DNA from: Pseudoalteromonas nigrifaciens
GTDB lineage: Bacteria > Pseudomonadota > Gammaproteobacteria > Enterobacterales > Alteromonadaceae
Direction: 5' to 3'
NCBI RefSeq assembly: GCF_002221505.1
Contig: NZ_CP011036.1
Span: forward strand, 1,674,001-1,738,000
DNA length: 64,000 bases
A program made the translations under genes and the position numbers. Under the pieces are notes generated by a model. It searched no databases. It was not told where the DNA came from and saw only the letters and a list, made by a program, of their open reading frames with translations. Every line of letters starts with the position of its first letter. Positions within the stretch are counted from its first letter, which is position 1. Of this stretch, positions 47,138 through 62,972 are shown in pieces.

Positions 47138-48100
47138 TTATAATCTTGAAAAAGGGCTAATAACACCATTAGCACCTTGCTGTAAAACATGGGTATATAT
47201 TTGTGTAGTACGAACGTCACTGTGCCCGAGTTGTGTTTGTACTGTGCGTATATCAGCGCCGCTTTGCAGTAAGTGCGTAGCGAATGAGTGGCGCAAAGTA
47301 TGTGGCGTAACGTGTTTATTAATGTGTGCATTAAAAGCCGCTTTTTTTACAGCGCGCTGTAATTGCTTTTCATCAATATGATGGCGCCTTAGCTGTTTAC
47401 TCTCAGGATCAATACTGAGTTTATAAGATGGAAATAAATATTGCCAACCCAGCTGTTTGTTATGATTTGGATATTTTTTACGTAATAAATGCGGCATATA
47501 CACGCCACAAAACAGCGGGTTATTTAGGTCTAATTGTAAATAATTATCGACTAATTGAATTTGTGTTCGTATTTGTGGTATCAGTTCTCCTGCAAGCGTT
47601 ACAACACGATTTTTGCCCCCTTTACCATCCCAAATTCGAACACAGTTATAATCAAAATCAATATCTTGTGTCCGCAAACGTAGTACCTCCATTAACCGCA
47701 TACCGCTACCATAAAGTAGTGCACACGCTAAATAATGCTTTGTAATACAGTGTTTAAATAACGCTGAAACTTCTGTTTGTGTAAGCACAACAGGTAATTT
47801 TCTAGGGCGTTCACTTTTTACAAAATCTAATGATAATGAGAGAGGACTTTTAATTATTTCCTTATATAGAAAACTTAGCGCATTCAATGCCTGGGCTTGT
47901 GTGCCTTGCGCTACATTTTGCGAGTTTACTAAATGATTTAAATATAATTCCACTTGAGTATCCCCCATAGAGCTTGGGTGTTGCATATTATTAAAGCGGA
48001 TATAGGCAGCTATCCAAAACAAATAAGCTTCAATAGTGCTCTTTGCATAACGCTTGCTATACATATGATCTTTAATCATGGTTAGAAAGAGAGATTTCAT
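47138..48100 (-). CDS. intI: Integron integrase IntI
   Basis: 320 aa tyrosine recombinase of the integron class. Catalytic residues are all visible: Arg in GSGMRLMEVLRLR, His-Arg in HTLRHSFATHLLQSG, His in LGHSDVRTTQ and nucleophile Tyr in IYTHV. The IntI-specific insert is present (LGWQYLFPSYKLSIDPESKQLRRHHIDEKQLQRAVKKA), which other tyrosine recombinases lack. No frameshift or truncation. It points away from the cassettes, as in all integrons. Its promoter carries a LexA box. Confidence 0.95.
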   Translation of the reverse strand: MKSLFLTMIKDHMYSKRYAKSTIEAYLFWIAAYIRFNNMQHPSSMGDTQVELYLNHLVNSQNVAQGTQAQALNALSFLYKEIIKSPLSLSLDFVKSERPRKLPVVLTQTEVSALFKHCITKHYLACALLYGSGMRLMEVLRLRTQDIDFDYNCVRIWDGKGGKNRVVTLAGELIPQIRTQIQLVDNYLQLDLNNPLFCGVYMPHLLRKKYPNHNKQLGWQYLFPSYKLSIDPESKQLRRHHIDEKQLQRAVKKAAFNAHINKHVTPHTLRHSFATHLLQSGADIRTVQTQLGHSDVRTTQIYTHVLQQGANGVISPFSRL

Positions 48101-48129: not shown

Positions 48130-48145
48130 CTGTATATATAGACAG
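48130..48145 (-). promoter_or_regulatory. LexA (SOS) box upstream of intI
   Basis: CTGTATATATAGACAG fits CTGT-N8-ACAG exactly and lies 30 bp upstream of the intI start. LexA control of integron integrases is established in Vibrio and class 1 integrons, so cassette shuffling here should be induced by DNA damage. Confidence 0.85.
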
Positions 48146-48732: not shown

Positions 48733-48800
48733 TCGGGTAGCCGGAGGTCTCTAACCTCCAGCCCCCACACCACCCATCATGCGGGTCCGCAATGGGCGGT

Positions 48801-50155
48801 TCATCTCCCGTAATGAATATTGATCCAAATATCTTTCAATGACACTAAACCTTGTGATGCTAAATAGTCATTACCTAGCGCAATGTTAATTCCTTTTGTT
48901 TTTGAGCTTCTACAAGGGCCTTTACTGGTGATACCACAGGCTATGGCGAGTCGCTCGCTAACACCCAATTTCATTAAACTGCGTACTTTGGTGCGAGGTT
49001 TACGCCATTGCCGCCAGTAGCACATTCTTATCCTACGACGGATCCAATGATCTAAATCCACTGTTAGTTGATAAGCGTTGGCTATTAGGTAGTAGTGTCC
49101 CCAGCCGCGTAAATACTGCGTGAGTTTATGAATTTGTAGGGTCATTGAGATCCCCCAGTTGCGGTTAGTGAGTTCTCTTACATTTGCTTTAAATTTCTTT
49201 AGCGCCTGTTCGTGGATCTGCACTTGAGCGTAACGGAATGTGAACCCGAGAAATTTCGAGCCTGATACGGGACCGACTCGACTTTTCGATTCATTCACTT
49301 TGAGTTTTAATCGCTGAGTGATAAACGCAGTAATTTCCCGTTGGATTATGAGTCCTTCGCTTTTCGTTTTTACTAAAATGATTATGTCATCAGCGTAACG
49401 TGCAAACTTAAGGTGTTTGTAGGTTAGCTTCTTATCTAATTCATCGAGTAAAATATTGGAAAGTAAAGGGGATAATGGCCCACCTTGAGGGACTCCTTTG
49501 GTTGACTCAAACCACAGACCCGTTTCGCGCTCTGCGATCCCCGCTCGGAGGTATTTACCAAGTAGGCGCATGAGTGCTTTGTCTTTGACTTTACGACCAA
49601 CACGATTCATCAGCATGTCATGGTTTACTTCATCAAAGAACTTAGACAAGTCAATATCAACTGCTGTTTTATAACCTTGTTTAACACAAGATTGAACATG
49701 ATTTACTGCTTGGCTGGCTCTTTTATGAGGGCGATAACCATAACTATGTGGTGAAAATAGAGGCTCAAAGTAAGGGCTAATCACTTGAGCAATAGCTTGT
49801 TGGATCACTCTGTCGATAACAGAAGGGATCCAAGCATTCGCTCACCGCCATCGGGTTTGGGTATCATCACGCGTTTGACTGGCAAGGGTTGATAAGTGCC
49901 GCTAAGTAATTGTTGTTTAATACCCAGCCAATGTAACTTAGCGAAGTGATTAAATTCCTCAATACTCATATTATCAATACCCGCAGCCCCTTTATTGCGC
50001 TTAACATGTTGCCATGCTGCACCAATATTGTGGTTGCTCAGTACCCTTGCCATCAGGTCACGATCTGTTTGGTTGTATTCATTCGAGGTATTATTCACAG
50101 TCGAACGCTGTTCATCACTATCACAACACGGTGATCTATGTGAATTCAAGTTCAT
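48801..50155 (-). pseudogene. Group II intron reverse transcriptase/maturase, frameshifted
   Basis: Two overlapping frames make one RT: an N-terminal part (49805-50155, 116 aa) ending in KPDGGERMLG and a C-terminal part (48801-49808, 335 aa) beginning IQQAIAQVISPYFEPLFSPHSYGYRPHK. Near 49830 the DNA reads CTTGGATCCCT where one more A would give the expected GERMLGIPSVIDRVIQQ, so a single-base deletion explains the break. The catalytic FARYADDIIIL box and maturase domain X are intact. There is no HNH endonuclease domain, as in group IIC. The stop lies at the edge of domain V. Confidence 0.88.
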
Positions 50156-50699
50156 TTGTAGTATCTCCTCTGGTTAAGATGTTCAGGCCTTCACCGTGTC
50201 CCCTCCATTACGATGGGCGTTTGGCTACTATGCCGTCTGCTGACTTCTGATAAATCACTCTAGCGATTACTCGATAAAGCGCGTCGAAACTAACGCTTGT
50301 TTACTGCTATTTCGCTCGCTGTAGGTCGCAGCAACCAAAGCGCCAAGGGTTGAACAACCAGTCCCTAACTGGTAATCTCCAAGCGTTAGCGCGGATGCGT
50401 GTTTATCAGATCTCCCCGAATAAGGTGCATCGACTTTCTCTGCACAACTGCATCATTTACGGTGGCCGTTAGATCACATGACTTCGCTATCTTGTGCTAG
50501 CTCGTCTCCAGCCTACGCCTCATATGATGTTTTTGTTCATCAGCTCACAGATTTGCTAGCGGCTTCCTCTAGACTATCTCTCGCGATTTAGCCCTTGCCA
50601 TTCGCTAGTAGTTATCGTTTAATAACAGTGTGTTATTTAAACGGTGATCTTCCTACAGAGGACTTTCACCCCATAAGTCAATGCCCATGTCGGGCGTAC
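50156..50699 (-). other. Group II intron domain I region
   Basis: No protein is encoded in this 540-bp stretch. It is the structured 5' part of the intron RNA upstream of the RT frame. Its outer 130 bp (about 50553-50699) is repeated, imperfectly, at 52836-52971. Confidence 0.7.
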
Positions 50700-50793
50700 A
50701 CAAGCTGTTAAACAAGGACAAAAAACAGTTTGCTGTTTTCGTTCCTCAACATTTTAGCAAACTATTTTATTGCCTGTTAACAGGGCGTTAGCA
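50700..50793 (+). other. attC1, main part (split by the intron)
   Basis: Starts ACAAGCTGTTAAACAAGG after the intron and ends CAGGGCGTTAGCA. The missing first bases, GCACATA, lie left of the intron at 48725-48731. The R' core is GTTAGCA, crossover at 50787/50788. It resembles attC5 closely, which has no intron. Confidence 0.8.
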
Positions 50794-50815
50794 TTCTCCT
50801 ATTAAGAGGATCGTG

Positions 50816-51616
50816 ATGAACACTAAACCTCAAATATTATTTTTGTCTCATGGCGGCGGGCCGATGCCACTTCTAGGTGATGTTGGGCATAAAGAAATGA
50901 TTGATTGCTTGCAAAAAATCTCATCTATTTTGCGTAAGCCATCAGCCATTTTAGTGGTAAGTGCGCACTGGGAAGAAAAAATCCCAACCATTACTTCGGG
51001 CGCCAACCCTTCCCTTATTTACGATTACTATGGATTTCCAGAAAAGTCTTATAGTATTACCTATCCTTGTCAGGGAGAGCCATCACTGGCGGAGCAGACC
51101 TATAAGCGGCTGGAGCATTCAGGTATTTCCGCAAAACTTGATGAGCAGCGCGGTTTTGACCACGGTCTATTTATTCCTCTGAAAATCATGTACCCGGAGG
51201 CAGATATTCCGTGCATTCAGCTCTCTCTTGTCGATAATCTCAGTCCAGCAGCTCATGTCGGGATAGGGCGAGCAATCCAAGACTTGGAGTATGAAAATTT
51301 ACTTATAATTGGTTCTGGTTTCTCCTTTCATAATATGAAAGCATTTTTTTCATCTGAAACCAGTGAATCAAAAACTTTAAATGAATCTTTTGAAGCGTGG
51401 CTGCTAGAGACTTGCACTAACAGTAGTATTACTGAAGAAGAAAGAGAACAAAGATTTATCCAATGGGAAAAAGCCCCCGGTGCTCGTTACTGTCACCCAA
51501 GAGAAGAGCATTTATTGCCGTTGCACGTTTGCTATGGAATAGCTAATAGTGTTTGCACTAAGTCGTTTGAGCTAAAGATTCTAAATAAAAAATCGAGCAT
51601 GTACATCTGGTCATAA
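50816..51616 (+). CDS. Cassette 2: LigB/DODA-type extradiol dioxygenase
   Basis: 266 aa protein of the class III extradiol ring-cleavage family (4,5-DOPA dioxygenase/YgiD group). Metal-ligand region LFLSHGGGP at the N-terminus, ILVVSAHWEE, FDHGLFIPLKIMYPEADIPCIQLS, and the late YCHPREEHLLPLHV. YgiD-type proteins bind iron or zinc; the natural substrate is unknown. ATG at 50816 follows AAGAGGA. Cassette limits are 50788-51673. Confidence 0.85.
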   Translation: MNTKPQILFLSHGGGPMPLLGDVGHKEMIDCLQKISSILRKPSAILVVSAHWEEKIPTITSGANPSLIYDYYGFPEKSYSITYPCQGEPSLAEQTYKRLEHSGISAKLDEQRGFDHGLFIPLKIMYPEADIPCIQLSLVDNLSPAAHVGIGRAIQDLEYENLLIIGSGFSFHNMKAFFSSETSESKTLNESFEAWLLETCTNSSITEEEREQRFIQWEKAPGARYCHPREEHLLPLHVCYGIANSVCTKSFELKILNKKSSMYIWS

Positions 51617-52494: not shown

Positions 52495-52701
52495 ATGTTT
52501 GCTCAAATTTTCTTAGCTATTTTGGCTGTATTTCTTTTCTATTTAGGTATTGTTGAAAAATCTATTCTCAATATTGGAATAGGTTTTATTTTAATAGTGG
52601 TATCAGTTGCTAGATTTTATGCCGCAAAATCGGGTTCATCTAGTCAAGAGGAATTTGATAAATGGCGCGTAAAACGTGAGAATAAAATAAACGATGATTA
52701 G
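52495..52701 (+). CDS. Cassette 4: small membrane protein, unknown function
   Basis: 68 aa with two closely spaced hydrophobic helices (residues 2-19 and 23-44) and a charged tail (EEFDKWRVKRENKINDD). AAAAGGA lies upstream of the ATG. No family recognised. Confidence 0.6.
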   Translation: MFAQIFLAILAVFLFYLGIVEKSILNIGIGFILIVVSVARFYAAKSGSSSQEEFDKWRVKRENKINDD

Positions 52702-52773
52702 CAACATCGGTGCTAACAACACGCCCTGAAGCTGCTAAATACGTCGATTCATCGTAGGGTGTATTCGTTTTTC

Positions 52774-52837
52774 AACACTTAAACACGATCCTTATCCATT
52801 TAAATGCCTGTGATCTAATAATGCTGTTATGCGGTTT
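52774..52837 (+). repeat. 64-bp repeat, copy 1
   Basis: Matches 54559-54622 with five differences by eye. Ends GCTGTTATGCGG, so a core site GTTATGC sits at its 3' end. Confidence 0.8.
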
Positions 52838-52971
52838 CCTTCGGTCTATTTCTCACTATTTAGCTCTTGCCATTCGCTGGTGGTTATCGTTAAATAACAG
52901 TATGTTATTTAAACGGTGATCTTCCTTCAGAGGGCATTCACGTTATAAGTTGATGCCCATGTCGGGCGTAC
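52836..52971 (-). mobile_element. 5' fragment of a second group II intron
   Basis: Imperfect copy of the first 130 bp of the intron at 48732-50699, same orientation, including the shared end TGCCCATGTCGGGCGTAC. The 5' exon again ends TTGT on minus. Everything downstream (ORF, domains V and VI) is gone. Confidence 0.75.
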
Positions 52972-53040
52972 ACAAAAAACTCTGCGCCTGTTAGCTAAGC
53001 GTTAGTTTTACTTTAAGCTCAGAGTGTTAATGGAATATTT

Positions 53041-53283
53041 ATGCCAATAAAAAAATGGATTGTTCAATACGCTATAGCTCTACCAATTGTTTTTTCTCTG
53101 CTGACAAGCGTTCAATACTTAAAAGGCAGAAGTCTAGAATACTCTATTGAATTTGGTATTTTGTGGGCCTGGGTATCGGTAACCATTTTTGCTATTAGGC
53201 GTTTCTACAATTATCGCAAAAACATTAATTGTGCTGTTTGCAATGATTTACCTGATAAGAATCAAGATTCTGGTGGTAGTTAA
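53041..53283 (+). CDS. Cassette 5: small membrane protein, unknown function
   Basis: 80 aa with two hydrophobic helices (about 9-24 and 37-52) and a polar tail containing a CxxC-like pair (NCAVC). No family recognised. Cassette limits 53002-53373. Confidence 0.6.
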   Translation: MPIKKWIVQYAIALPIVFSLLTSVQYLKGRSLEYSIEFGILWAWVSVTIFAIRRFYNYRKNINCAVCNDLPDKNQDSGGS

Positions 53284-53379
53284 ACATAACAAACTGTTAA
53301 ATAAGGATAAAAAAAGTTAGTTGTTTCGTTTCTCAACATTATAGCCAGCAATTTTTTGCCTCTGAATGAGGCGTTATGT
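53284..53379 (+). other. attC5
   Basis: R'' ACATAAC (53284-53290), then AAACTGTTAAATAAGG, and R' GTTATGT in GAGGCGTTATGT, crossover 53373/53374. It is the intact counterpart of attC1 and shows what the intron target looked like before insertion. Confidence 0.85.
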
Positions 53380-53397
53380 ACTCAAAGGAATGTTGAA

Positions 53398-54417
53398 ATG
53401 CTCTACAAAATAGAAGAACAAGCTGACGTATTTGAAAAACTAGAACCAGTCGAGTTCAAAGATTTTTCTAGTTTCGGAAAGCTTGAGAAAGATTTGGAAA
53501 ACTTAATTGCAAATAGCATTTTAGATGTATTGTTTGAGGATGCTAGGTTAATGCCTGTTTTTCAAGAAAGGCAATGGCAAGCAGAAGCTGATATATATGC
53601 ACTCAATGAAAATGGTGAATTGGTTATATTTGAGTTAAAGCGTGCATCTGCTGGTAAAGATGCTGTTCATCAAGCACTAAGGTACGCACAAGACGCAGGC
53701 CAATGGAGCTACCAAAAGTTAGAAAGAAGGTTCAAAGAATATAGCAAAAGCAAAATGTCGCTGGTTGAAGCTCACAGAGAAGCTTTTAACCTAGAGCATG
53801 AATTAGAACCAAAAGAAATAAATAATAAGCAACACCTATTGGTTATCGGTAGTGCAGCCGATGAGTCATTAATATCATCCATAGATTACTGGAAGAAAAA
53901 TGGAATATCTATTGATTTCTTGCCATATCGAGTTTATGAACTTGCTGGAGAAAAGTACTTTGAGTTCTTCGCTCTCCCATACGATAAACATAAAAATCCA
54001 AGTGATGTAAAAGGTGTATTATTTGACACAAATCGTAGTTGGGATGAAAACTCTATTTGGTCAATGATGGATAATAGCCGTCTTGAAGCCTATGGTGACG
54101 CAAAGAGGTTCGTTCATCATGTTCATGTGGGAGATATTGTTTTCTTTTCGCACAAATGGTGTGGCTTAATAGCTGCTGCAAAAGTTAAAGGTGAAGTCAA
54201 AGCTCCAGACAGCGATACTTTGTATCGAGATGTGGATTTTCTAACTCCTATTCCGAGCCGCAAAGATAATATAGTGTCGGCTATGCCTTTTTCTGAGGTT
54301 AGCTCAAAAACAGGTAAAAGTTTCTTTTGGGCACGAACGATAAAAGTGCCTTATCTTACAAAAAGTGAAGCGCTTGAATTGGTTGATGAGCTTAACAATT
54401 ACCTGCGGCGCACATAA
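53398..54417 (+). CDS. Cassette 6: PD-(D/E)xK nuclease with PUA/EVE-like C-terminus
   Basis: 339 aa. The nuclease core is about residues 20-110: EADIYAL (Asp), LVIFELKRASAG (E-x-K) and HQALRYAQ (the Q-x3-Y motif of RecB/NucS-like nucleases). After a middle region (LLVIGSAADESLISSIDYWKKNGISIDFLPYRVY) comes FDTNRSWDENSIWSMM and VGDIVFFSHKWCGLIAAAKVKGE, which resembles PUA/EVE-type base-reading domains. ATG at 53398 follows AAAGGA; an earlier frame start lies across attC5. A defence role against modified or foreign DNA is inferred. Confidence 0.7.
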   Translation: MLYKIEEQADVFEKLEPVEFKDFSSFGKLEKDLENLIANSILDVLFEDARLMPVFQERQWQAEADIYALNENGELVIFELKRASAGKDAVHQALRYAQDAGQWSYQKLERRFKEYSKSKMSLVEAHREAFNLEHELEPKEINNKQHLLVIGSAADESLISSIDYWKKNGISIDFLPYRVYELAGEKYFEFFALPYDKHKNPSDVKGVLFDTNRSWDENSIWSMMDNSRLEAYGDAKRFVHHVHVGDIVFFSHKWCGLIAAAKVKGEVKAPDSDTLYRDVDFLTPIPSRKDNIVSAMPFSEVSSKTGKSFFWARTIKVPYLTKSEALELVDELNNYLRRT

Positions 54418-54526
54418 CAAATCAGAATATAAACACTGGTTAGGTGGTATATTTGTTGAGCCTTCTAAGCGAATTAATAGTGTTTCAAGCTTATTGATTT
54501 CCGAAGCTAAAAAAAGAAAAATAAAA

Positions 54527-54552
54527 GGACAGGCATAAAATATTGCCTGTCC
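54527..54552. repeat. REP-like hairpin with GGACAGGCA stem
   Basis: GGACAGGCA, 8-nt loop, TGCCTGTCC. The half-sequence GACAGGCATAAAA recurs at 60515-60527 and 60554-60566, just upstream of the broken REP-associated transposase gene. Confidence 0.65.
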
Positions 54553-54558
54553 CTTTCT

Positions 54559-54622
54559 AACACCTAAATACAATCCTTATCCATTTAAATGCCAGTGATC
54601 TAATAATGCTGTTATGTGGTTT
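54559..54622 (+). repeat. 64-bp repeat, copy 2
   Basis: Partner of 52774-52837. Ends GCTGTTATGTGG with a core GTTATGT. No cassette follows it here. Confidence 0.8.
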
Positions 54623-54774
54623 ACTTTTGGCTTTGTTACTTAAAATACACTGTGCTGAATTCAATCAGCTATTTACAACCCCCCAGCCTGCACAGCTGGT
54701 TTGTACTAAACATGCGGGTAGGATAACGCGCTTATGAGCCCACACTGTGCATTTAATTTGGTTATGGGTTATGG

Positions 54775-60733: not shown

Positions 60734-62227
60734 GTGCCGGGAACACGAATCACTGATCAGCAGGTCACTATTTATATGAAACATAGAAAACGTAATAGCC
60801 AAGTTATCGCGGCTGCGAAAGCAGGTATTTCTGAACGTTCAGCAAGGCGCATTGATAAACTGGATGAGCAGCCATTGTCTAATAAACGCCAATGGCGAAC
60901 GCGTATAGATCCACTTGAGTCTATCTGGGACAGTATTGTTGTCCCTCTACTTCAAGGTGATGCAACGTTAACTCCGGTGGGAATTTTTGATCACCTTTGC
61001 GAGTTTCACACCGACAAATTTAACCCTAGCTCACGGCGTACATTAGAGCGTCGAATTCACAAATGGCGAGCACTGTATGGCTCAAGCAAAGAGGTCGTAT
61101 TCCTGCAAACACACGAGTATGGCCTATTAGGCATGTGTGATTTTACACATGTGAAGTCACCCGTTACCATTGCTAGTGAACCCTTAAAGCATATGTTGTT
61201 TCATTATCGTATGCCCGCCAGTGGCTGGGCTTATGCCCAAGTGATTTACGGCGGTGAAAGCTTTGCTGCTTTTTCTGATGGCGTGCAAAACGCATTTAAA
61301 GCAGCCGGCGGTGTGCCTAAAGAAGTGCGTACAGACAGTCTGAGTGCCGCCTATCGTAATCACACTAATGATAACGATTTTACAGAGCGCTTTAATGAAT
61401 TAGTCACCCATTATGGCTTTAAAGCGACCCGCAATAACCGTGGTATTGCGCATGAAAATGGGGCTATTGAGAGCCCTCATGGGCATCTTAAATCGCAACT
61501 GGAGCAAGCATTAAAAATCCGTGGTAGTTATGACTTTCAGACAAGAGAAGTCTATGAATCGTTTGTTGCCGACATTGTAGCTCGCCGTAATCGCCGTGTA
61601 AGTGATAAATACGCAGTAGAGCAGCGACAATTACATGCTTTACCACGGACGATGAGCGTCAATTACACCGAGCATTATCTAACGGTGTCACGTACGAGTA
61701 CTATTTCGTTGAAACGTGTTACCTATAGCGTCCCGTCACGCCTTATTGGTAGCCGATTACTTGTTCGTTTATATGACAACCGTTTAGAGCTGCGCTATGG
61801 CAGCGATTTAGTTCAAACGTTAGCGCGTGTCTATGCTTCTAAAGGATGCCGTGCACGTAATATTAGTTACTTGCATGTTATTGACGCACTGGTTAAAAAA
61901 CCATTGGCATTTCGCTACTCACAACTACGTGACGACTTACTTCCAAGCGACAATTACAAAGCTATTTGGGAATACGTTAATGCCCACCTTTTAGCGGATG
62001 AAGCGAGCTATTACATGGTGAAATTGCTCCATTTAGCGAAGCAAAGTGGGTGTGAACGTCAATTAGGACGATTTGTAGCAGCGTCAATTACTCAGCGACA
62101 ATTACCGGCCATCCGAGAATGTGAAGCGCAATTTTTAGTGATTGCATCAAACATACCCACAATAACAATAAAGCAACACAGCTTGAGCGCTTATAGCAGC
62201 ATGATACCGGGAGGTCTACATGGATAA
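60734..62227 (+). CDS. istA: IS21-family transposase IstA
   Basis: 497 aa. N-terminal HTH (SQVIAAAKAGISERSARRIDKL), DDE catalytic core with Asp in MCDFTHVK, Asp in VRTDSLSAAY and Glu in HENGAIESPHGHLK, then a beta-barrel-like C-terminal part. GTG start at 60734 with GGAGGAG upstream. Overlaps istB by 8 bp. Looks intact. Confidence 0.93.
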   Translation: MPGTRITDQQVTIYMKHRKRNSQVIAAAKAGISERSARRIDKLDEQPLSNKRQWRTRIDPLESIWDSIVVPLLQGDATLTPVGIFDHLCEFHTDKFNPSSRRTLERRIHKWRALYGSSKEVVFLQTHEYGLLGMCDFTHVKSPVTIASEPLKHMLFHYRMPASGWAYAQVIYGGESFAAFSDGVQNAFKAAGGVPKEVRTDSLSAAYRNHTNDNDFTERFNELVTHYGFKATRNNRGIAHENGAIESPHGHLKSQLEQALKIRGSYDFQTREVYESFVADIVARRNRRVSDKYAVEQRQLHALPRTMSVNYTEHYLTVSRTSTISLKRVTYSVPSRLIGSRLLVRLYDNRLELRYGSDLVQTLARVYASKGCRARNISYLHVIDALVKKPLAFRYSQLRDDLLPSDNYKAIWEYVNAHLLADEASYYMVKLLHLAKQSGCERQLGRFVAASITQRQLPAIRECEAQFLVIASNIPTITIKQHSLSAYSSMIPGGLHG

Positions 62228-62972
62228 CTTCACGGCCTCGTTACCTTTAATGCTGAAACAATTAAAGCTTAGCACCATGCTTCAACAGTGGAATACTCTG
62301 GGCAAAAAAGCGATAGAAGAACAATGGAGCCCACAGCAATACTTATCTGAGCTGTGCCATATTGAACTTGCGACACGCGATGACAAACGCCTTCAGCGGC
62401 TTTTAAAAGATGCAAAATTGCCCGTGGGTAAACACCTTAGCAGCTTCGACTTTACCCTTGTTGATGGGGTTAGTAAGCCCCTTGTTGCTGATTTAATAAA
62501 TCAGCCGGATTGGTTGAAGTACGGTGGCAATATATTGTTATTTGGCGCCAGTGGTCTTGGTAAAACGCATATCGCCAGTAGCATCGGTTATGGCCTTATC
62601 GAGCAGGGCCATAAAGTTAAGTTTGTTGCCGCGTCAGCGATTGTTCAACAACTCCAGCAAGCAAAGCGACATTTACGCTTGCAAGACGAACTTGTAAAGC
62701 TCGATAAATACAGCTTATTAATCGTTGATGACGTTGGTTACGTTCGAAAAACGGAACAGGAAACGAGTGTGCTGTTTGAATTGATAGCCCATCGCTATGA
62801 GCGACACAGCATGATCATCACATCAAACAAATCATTCGAACAATGGGATGAACTATTTGATGATTCAACGATGACTGTCGCGGCAATCGATCGCTTGGTT
62901 CATCATGCAACGATTATTCATTGCGAAGGTGAAAGTTACCGACGCAAAACAGCGCTCAATAAGAGCAAATAA
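62220..62972 (+). CDS. istB: IS21-family ATP-binding helper IstB
   Basis: 250 aa AAA+ protein. Walker A GASGLGKTHIASSIG (about residues 111-125), Walker B YSLLIVDDVGYV, and sensor region MIITSNKSFEQWDELF. Helps IstA choose target DNA. Looks intact. Confidence 0.93.
   Translation: MDNFTASLPLMLKQLKLSTMLQQWNTLGKKAIEEQWSPQQYLSELCHIELATRDDKRLQRLLKDAKLPVGKHLSSFDFTLVDGVSKPLVADLINQPDWLKYGGNILLFGASGLGKTHIASSIGYGLIEQGHKVKFVAASAIVQQLQQAKRHLRLQDELVKLDKYSLLIVDDVGYVRKTEQETSVLFELIAHRYERHSMIITSNKSFEQWDELFDDSTMTVAAIDRLVHHATIIHCEGESYRRKTALNKSK

Follow-up and report, generated by a model that had tools for sequence, protein, structure and literature searches.

A NucS-like nuclease with an EVE/YTH-like domain, carried by an integron cassette of Pseudoalteromonas nigrifaciens, is a candidate modification-dependent restriction enzyme

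The 64,000 nucleotides analysed here (the window; contig NZ_CP011036.1 of P. nigrifaciens, positions 1,674,001 to 1,738,000, from a genome of 4.27 Mb) contain a short integron cassette array, read on the plus strand, beside the integrase gene intI. The last cassette holds a single gene, whose 339-residue product joins a NucS-like PD-(D/E)xK nuclease to a C-terminal EVE/YTH-like domain (Table 1). The original prediction, made from the sequence, was of a candidate defence gene combining a nuclease with a modified-base reader. Its open reading frame, from the ATG at 53398 to a stop codon ending at 54417, lies where it had been placed. An alternative TTG start at 53356 would lengthen the protein by 14 residues; the ATG is favoured because the AAAGGA-like leader directly 5' of it is kept in the homologous loci L001, L042, and L043.

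Table 1. Features of the integron and its last cassette, in window positions.
Feature	Position	Strand	Remarks
Integron integrase gene intI	47138..48100	-	TIGR02249, 515 bits, E 5.8e-155
LexA (SOS) box-like palindrome CTGTATATATAGACAG	48130..48145		30 bases upstream of the intI start codon
Preceding cassette gene	53041..53283	+	80 residues, no family found
attC of the preceding cassette	53284..53379	+	Boxes ACATAAC ... GTTATGT exactly complementary
Last cassette gene	53398..54417	+	339 residues, stop codon included; NucS-like PD-(D/E)xK nuclease and EVE/YTH-like domain
Nuclease part, about residues 30-190	53485..53967	+	D65, E79-x-K81, Q92-x3-Y96; from NucS similarity, conservation, and model
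EVE/YTH-like domain (PUA superfamily), residues 202-339	54001..54414	+	
Start of the last cassette's own attC, ACATAACAAATCA	54412..54430	+	Unlike the L001 and L042 hairpins after about a dozen bases

The protein has 1076 homologues at E <= 1e-3. Conservation was counted over the query and 240 listed homologues, the best 120 of these 1076 and the best 120 of a further search result of 740, a set biased to the closer ones. Asp65 and Gln92 are invariant (241/241), Tyr96 is present in 238, and Glu79 in 235, with five Asp and one Ser as exceptions. Lys81 of the E-x-K motif, whose loss in close homologues had been raised as a point to check, is kept in 239 and replaced by Arg in two. The full signature (Asp, E-x-K, Q-x3-Y) is thus conserved as predicted, and the catalytic set is therefore real and under constraint. 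Pfam NucS_C matches 85 of 104 relatives (E <= 0.01), the family profile finds NucS (2vld) in the PDB at E 2.3e-5, and the best Foldseek match of the AlphaFold model is EndoMS (5gkj, E 5.7e-4). The nuclease assignment comes from these three sources; the VIA-align rows span residues 199-339 only. The confidence of the model (A2) is lower in the nuclease half than in the C-terminal part, with block means of the predicted local distance difference test (pLDDT) of about 69-80 over residues 21-70. It supersedes a first model (A1, pLDDT 70.8) built from close homologues only.

The C-terminal fold had been proposed from pattern as PUA/EVE-like, and when the model was compared with known structures YTH and EVE tied among its best fold matches. 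Thr211, Trp221, Asp246, Phe249, His252, Phe309, and Trp311 are almost invariant in the family. Among the residues presumed to line the pocket, Thr211 and Trp221 are present in 241 of 241 sequences, Tyr276 in 231, and Trp311 in 238. Pfam EVE (PF01878) matches 24 of 104 relatives at E <= 0.01; in a set of ten proteins, P0127 (23.9) and P0189 (24.9) score above 23 bits, and the other eight have no match at that threshold. One relative (L069) matches the query up to residue 253 and then continues with a different C-terminus in an open frame of 487 residues. A Foldseek comparison with viral models aligned Bacillus phage G gp54 (G3MBC4) over 338 columns at E 8.8e-6, the same alignment having a TM score of only 0.32-0.36 and a root-mean-square deviation of 12.1; judging from these models, gp54 is perhaps a phage protein with the same two-domain plan.

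The 5' boundary of the cassette is the crossover G|TT at 53373/53374. Upstream likeness among the window, L001 (Leucothrix), and L003 (Alteromonas) starts only at GGCGTTATGT, within 4 bases of this crossover, and the boundary is therefore as expected for a cassette inserted by an integrase. L042 and L043 share TTAGGTACTCAAAGGAATG upstream of the gene, and the sequence before it differs. The cassette claim rests on this boundary and not on scanning, because both of our attC detectors performed poorly. Across both flanks of 39 loci the strict one gave a single site (upstream of L026), compared with 1 in 1000 control stretches. With the looser one, for which the 99th percentile of 2000 controls was 13.5, only five sites reached that value: upstream of L001 (13.5) and L026 (15.5) and downstream of L009 (14.5), L031 (13.5, probably a false call), and L034 (13.5). 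With a score of 12.5, the upstream attC in the window falls at about the 95th-98th percentile of controls.

The gene had been described as the last mobile cassette of an SOS-controlled integron. Its last place, the integrase, and an SOS-box-like site upstream of intI are all found; since 0.66 such matches are expected by chance within the window, the weight of CTGTATATATAGACAG rests on its position. Mobility is doubtful because the 3' attC looks degenerate: it scores 10.5, within the control level, whereas L001 and L042 have attC-like hairpins immediately 3' of the stop codon, the inner arms of the L001 hairpin (TCAAGGCTG and CAGCTTGA) pairing with one extra-helical G. To judge from its sequence, the cassette may no longer be excisable here. 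The ACATAAC at 54412 is matched exactly by a GTTATGT at 54611-54617, for a total span of 206 bases, and a very long attC closed by that distant box is conceivable. A stretch of about 72 bases is shared (90% alike) by 52770-52841 and 54554-54626, before and after the last two cassettes, and the chromosome has a third copy (86%) some 130 kb upstream. The GTTATGT in the 54554-54626 copy could possibly be a surrogate R' box of the last cassette. Among the loci examined, an integrase is near the family gene only in L005; at E <= 1e-40 an integron integrase occurs somewhere in the genome in 8 of 9 close relatives (L001-L007, L014, L026) and in 4 of 25 others, G034 and G109 being the same genome in this count.

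The nearest named copies, in Pseudoalteromonas flavipulchra and Leucothrix pacifica, are each 94% identical to ours. Rough Nei-Gojobori ratios of nonsynonymous to synonymous substitution, which show the gene to be under selection, are for the window copy 0.035, 0.038, and 0.033 against L042, L043, and L001, and 0.098 against L003; L003 against the other three gives 0.24-0.32. Within the genus, three of 108 genomes carry a full-length copy (G000, the host, with G034 and G044); a fourth has a 39-residue C-terminal piece, and 13 more have distant matches only (23-31%). At E <= 1e-40 the family occurs in 3 of 369 genomes sampled from the class, and in the phyla of L027, L033, and L028 in 2 of 396, 3 of 387, and 5 of 395. 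The centre genomes are part of these samples; the three include a broken copy (L068), and the five include two 26% relatives (L073, L074). No phage record was matched by tblastn; two IMG/VR contigs (L040, L041) and seven plasmids were, two of the plasmids with more than 80% coverage. In a midpoint-rooted tree of 35 proteins, the copy of a Saprospiraceae metagenome-assembled genome clusters (100/100) with eight from gammaproteobacteria, and a separate 100/99 group of six unites Acidobacteriota, Verrucomicrobiota (2), Nitrospirota, and two lineages labelled delta-proteobacterial. Spread and tree together present the sequence pattern of a transferred accessory gene.

All locus flanks were viewed as raw sequence, those that looked like Hsd genes were picked for scanning, and the scan covered one to three flanking proteins at each locus. 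At three loci of the 100/99 group (L027, L028, L033) the gene lies between HsdS (PF01420) and HsdR (PF04851, PF08463). The gaps to these neighbours in L028 are 3 and 4 bases, the gene overlaps the HsdS frame as called in L027, and in L033 an Mrr-type nuclease also lies between HsdS and HsdR. With one to a few hsd operons in a genome, we estimate that far fewer than three of six loci would be expected to fall within one type of operon, the six being a non-random sample. Hsd fragments are near L032 and L030, the latter also adjoining an SLFN_AlbA_2 protein, and an HsdR-like gene is downstream of L068. Other neighbours are RhuM (L029), a C-terminal piece of Shedu SduA 257 bases away (L015), a WYL regulator and a Sir2 protein (L020), an FRG protein and a kinase (L034), T5orf172 (L036), and, on the viral contig L041, a nearby N6_Mtase.

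Anatomy, conservation, and fold matches agree with the reading first proposed, and the protein is rather probably a single-protein, modification-dependent (type IV-like) restriction endonuclease; as a predicted defence protein, its anatomy is well supported and its function moderately so. The EVE/YTH-like domain would flip and test a base in incoming phage DNA and, if that base bears a modification foreign to the host, the NucS-like domain would cut nearby. No methyltransferase would be needed because the host lacks the mark; none was found among the cassette genes scanned, and the cassette itself has one gene.

The methyltransferases of carrier genomes bear on which mark might be read. A C5-methyltransferase (E <= 1e-20) is present in 20 of 37 carriers (19 of 36, as G117 and G567 look like one genome) vs 52 of 185 genomes of a class sample that contains the carriers G000, G567, and G697 and differs from the carriers in taxa, some being metagenome-assembled. 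A plain 5-methylcytosine (5mC) reader should avoid such hosts; plain 5mC is therefore unsupported as the target. MethyltransfD12, in these carriers presumably Dam, matched in seven of seven carriers tested (weak and partial in G108), and the P. nigrifaciens genome has a D12 match and no C5 match. A plain N6-methyladenine (m6A) reader should likewise avoid Dam hosts, so that another mark is likelier. The presence of these methyltransferases in the hosts suggests hypermodified phage bases, and the target is more likely to be such a base (for example 5-hydroxymethylcytosine, 5hmC, or glucosylated 5hmC) or a mark confined to a narrow sequence context.

The same methyltransferases, together with the three genes placed between HsdS and HsdR, would also suit a protein whose EVE/YTH-like domain only docks DNA or a partner, leaving a plain or partner-controlled nuclease, for example a type I accessory. 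We think this unlikely: the cassette form stands alone, and the four presumed pocket residues are kept almost throughout the family. An abortive-infection or RNA-level effector, whose YTH-like domain would recognise modified RNA and whose nuclease would attack RNA or the host's own DNA in the infected cell, seems to us equally improbable. PD-(D/E)xK enzymes are versatile, and YTH shares with EVE a place among the best fold matches, but NucS relatives act on DNA, as do the type I restriction neighbours. Least likely is a repair nuclease like NucS/EndoMS whose C-terminal domain senses a damaged or deaminated base and not a phage mark, because, for all its NucS-like nuclease domain, the family is rare and patchy (less than 1.5% outside the genus sample) where a repair enzyme is expected to be core, moves as cassettes, sits inside restriction operons at three loci, and scores 34.6 bits, over residues 22-99 only, with the NCBIfam NucS/EndoMS model NF003270, whose cut-off is 216 bits.

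Several observations weigh against a modification-dependent restriction endonuclease. On the query itself Pfam EVE has no match at E <= 1, and NucS_C gives a sub-threshold match (E 8.3e-4, residues 53-98). A C-terminal profile (A3, 32 sequences) retrieved neither EVE nor YTH chains from the PDB; it returned four dual-specificity phosphatase 19 sequences (best E 0.015) and one ribonucleotide reductase, hits that we put down to chance since they disagree with the fold search and with the Pfam matches of relatives. Outside the type I loci most scanned flanking genes are not known defence genes, and there is no clear one among those scanned at L007, L012, L013, L016, L017, L019, L021, L022, L024, L025, L031, and L035. 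The gene would have to be expressed from the last place of the array, and no promoter-like site was found on the coding strand of 52700-54700 (against 6.0 expected, this interval has a single such site, on the minus strand). Finally, 5mC is the commonest EVE target, and C5-methyltransferases are frequent in carriers.

The lone cassette and the third part of type I operons could be two layouts of one family directed against hypermodified phages, reading a base that is neither a Dam nor a C5 product and hence moving freely, an idea we hold as tentative and rather doubtful. If true, free movement between hosts of many phyla would explain the wide but thin spread, and in type I operons the protein would catch phages whose hypermodified DNA escapes the type I enzyme. 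A hypermodified-base target would serve both phage biology and enzyme tools, and the single-gene form makes testing simple. The gene adds a clear candidate to a growing list of anti-phage integron cassettes (at least 16 of 179 in V. cholerae and 9 of 57 in V. parahaemolyticus, as given in the available part of a review, PMC12409362) and connects it with type I restriction operons of other phyla.

Elsewhere in the window, a group II intron (RF02001 and RF01998 parts; outer ends set by eye) lies inside the attC of the first cassette at 48735-50702 on the minus strand, its maturase reverse transcriptase split over two frames (49805-50155 and 48801-49808). IIC-attC introns occur in other integrons, and this one resembles them. 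By eye, 52780-52973 looks like the 5' end of an intron of this kind and interrupts the attC between the cassettes of the 68- and 80-residue proteins. The cassette gene at 50813-51616 encodes a LigB-type aromatic ring-opening dioxygenase (PF02900, E 1.1e-28), an unusual cargo. A transposase and ATPase pair at 60734-62972 is presumably an IS21-type element.

Among known systems, NucS/EndoMS has a nuclease domain alike in sequence and fold, but its NCBIfam model is matched only in that part (positions 123-197 of 250), far under the cut-off, and NucS is not known to carry an EVE domain. TgvAB proteins are not known to be related to the family. Like the family in L027, L028, and L033, the GmrSD-like TgvAB is a modification-dependent enzyme in a type I locus (PMC12409362). 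YTH-McrB of Thermococcus gammatolerans ties a YTH/EVE-like reader of m6A in DNA to restriction, as proposed here, but is fused to a McrB-type motor, which our single protein lacks (PMC7641849, section 13). VcaM4I, tested for T4gt restriction in E. coli, also has an EVE reader and a nuclease in one chain, with an HNH nuclease and an N-terminal EVE where ours has PD-(D/E)xK and a C-terminal EVE/YTH-like domain (PMC7897488). CMoRE, an enzyme for 5hmC, differs in its nuclease, which is GIY-YIG (PMC12923530).

PDC-S11, an uncharacterised phage defence candidate in PADLOC-DB, has a homologous nuclease part. Its profile aligns residues 28-253 of the query with positions 23-242 of 358 (E 3.1e-24), and six relatives match in part (4.4e-19 to 2.0e-24), none reaching the profile end. 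Two proteins of the same genus, L046 (1172-2257) and L047 (1477-2556), match it at full length (E 1.1e-152 and 8.6e-105) and are 23-24% identical to the family. Because of this difference the family is, on sequence grounds, best called a sister of PDC-S11 rather than a member; the distinction is blurred by L052, another protein of this genus, which matches at only 5.8e-28. The C-terminal halves of L046 and L047 look PUA/EVE-like by eye. PDC-S11 itself may be a modification-dependent nuclease. In the available account it is carried by 10 P. aeruginosa strains, 90% of them resistant, which is not a test of function.

In the literature searched for the family or for cassette defence (listings and partial texts) we did not find the family described, and the whole words EVE, DUF91, NucS, and YTH are absent from the DefensePredictor main text (PMC13092281). 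The combination of an EVE-like domain with a nuclease is known from putative modification-dependent restriction enzymes, in line with the original prediction: Bell, Wolf, and Koonin (2020; PMC7641849) describe EVE joined to PD-(D/E)xK as a putative type IV restriction class. Those enzymes share with ours the nuclease, the EVE/YTH-like reader, and defence contexts, and differ in that the available main text has no word beginning NucS, DUF91, or integron. The two-part design is thus already known as a suspected defence, and the NucS-like branch is an added member.
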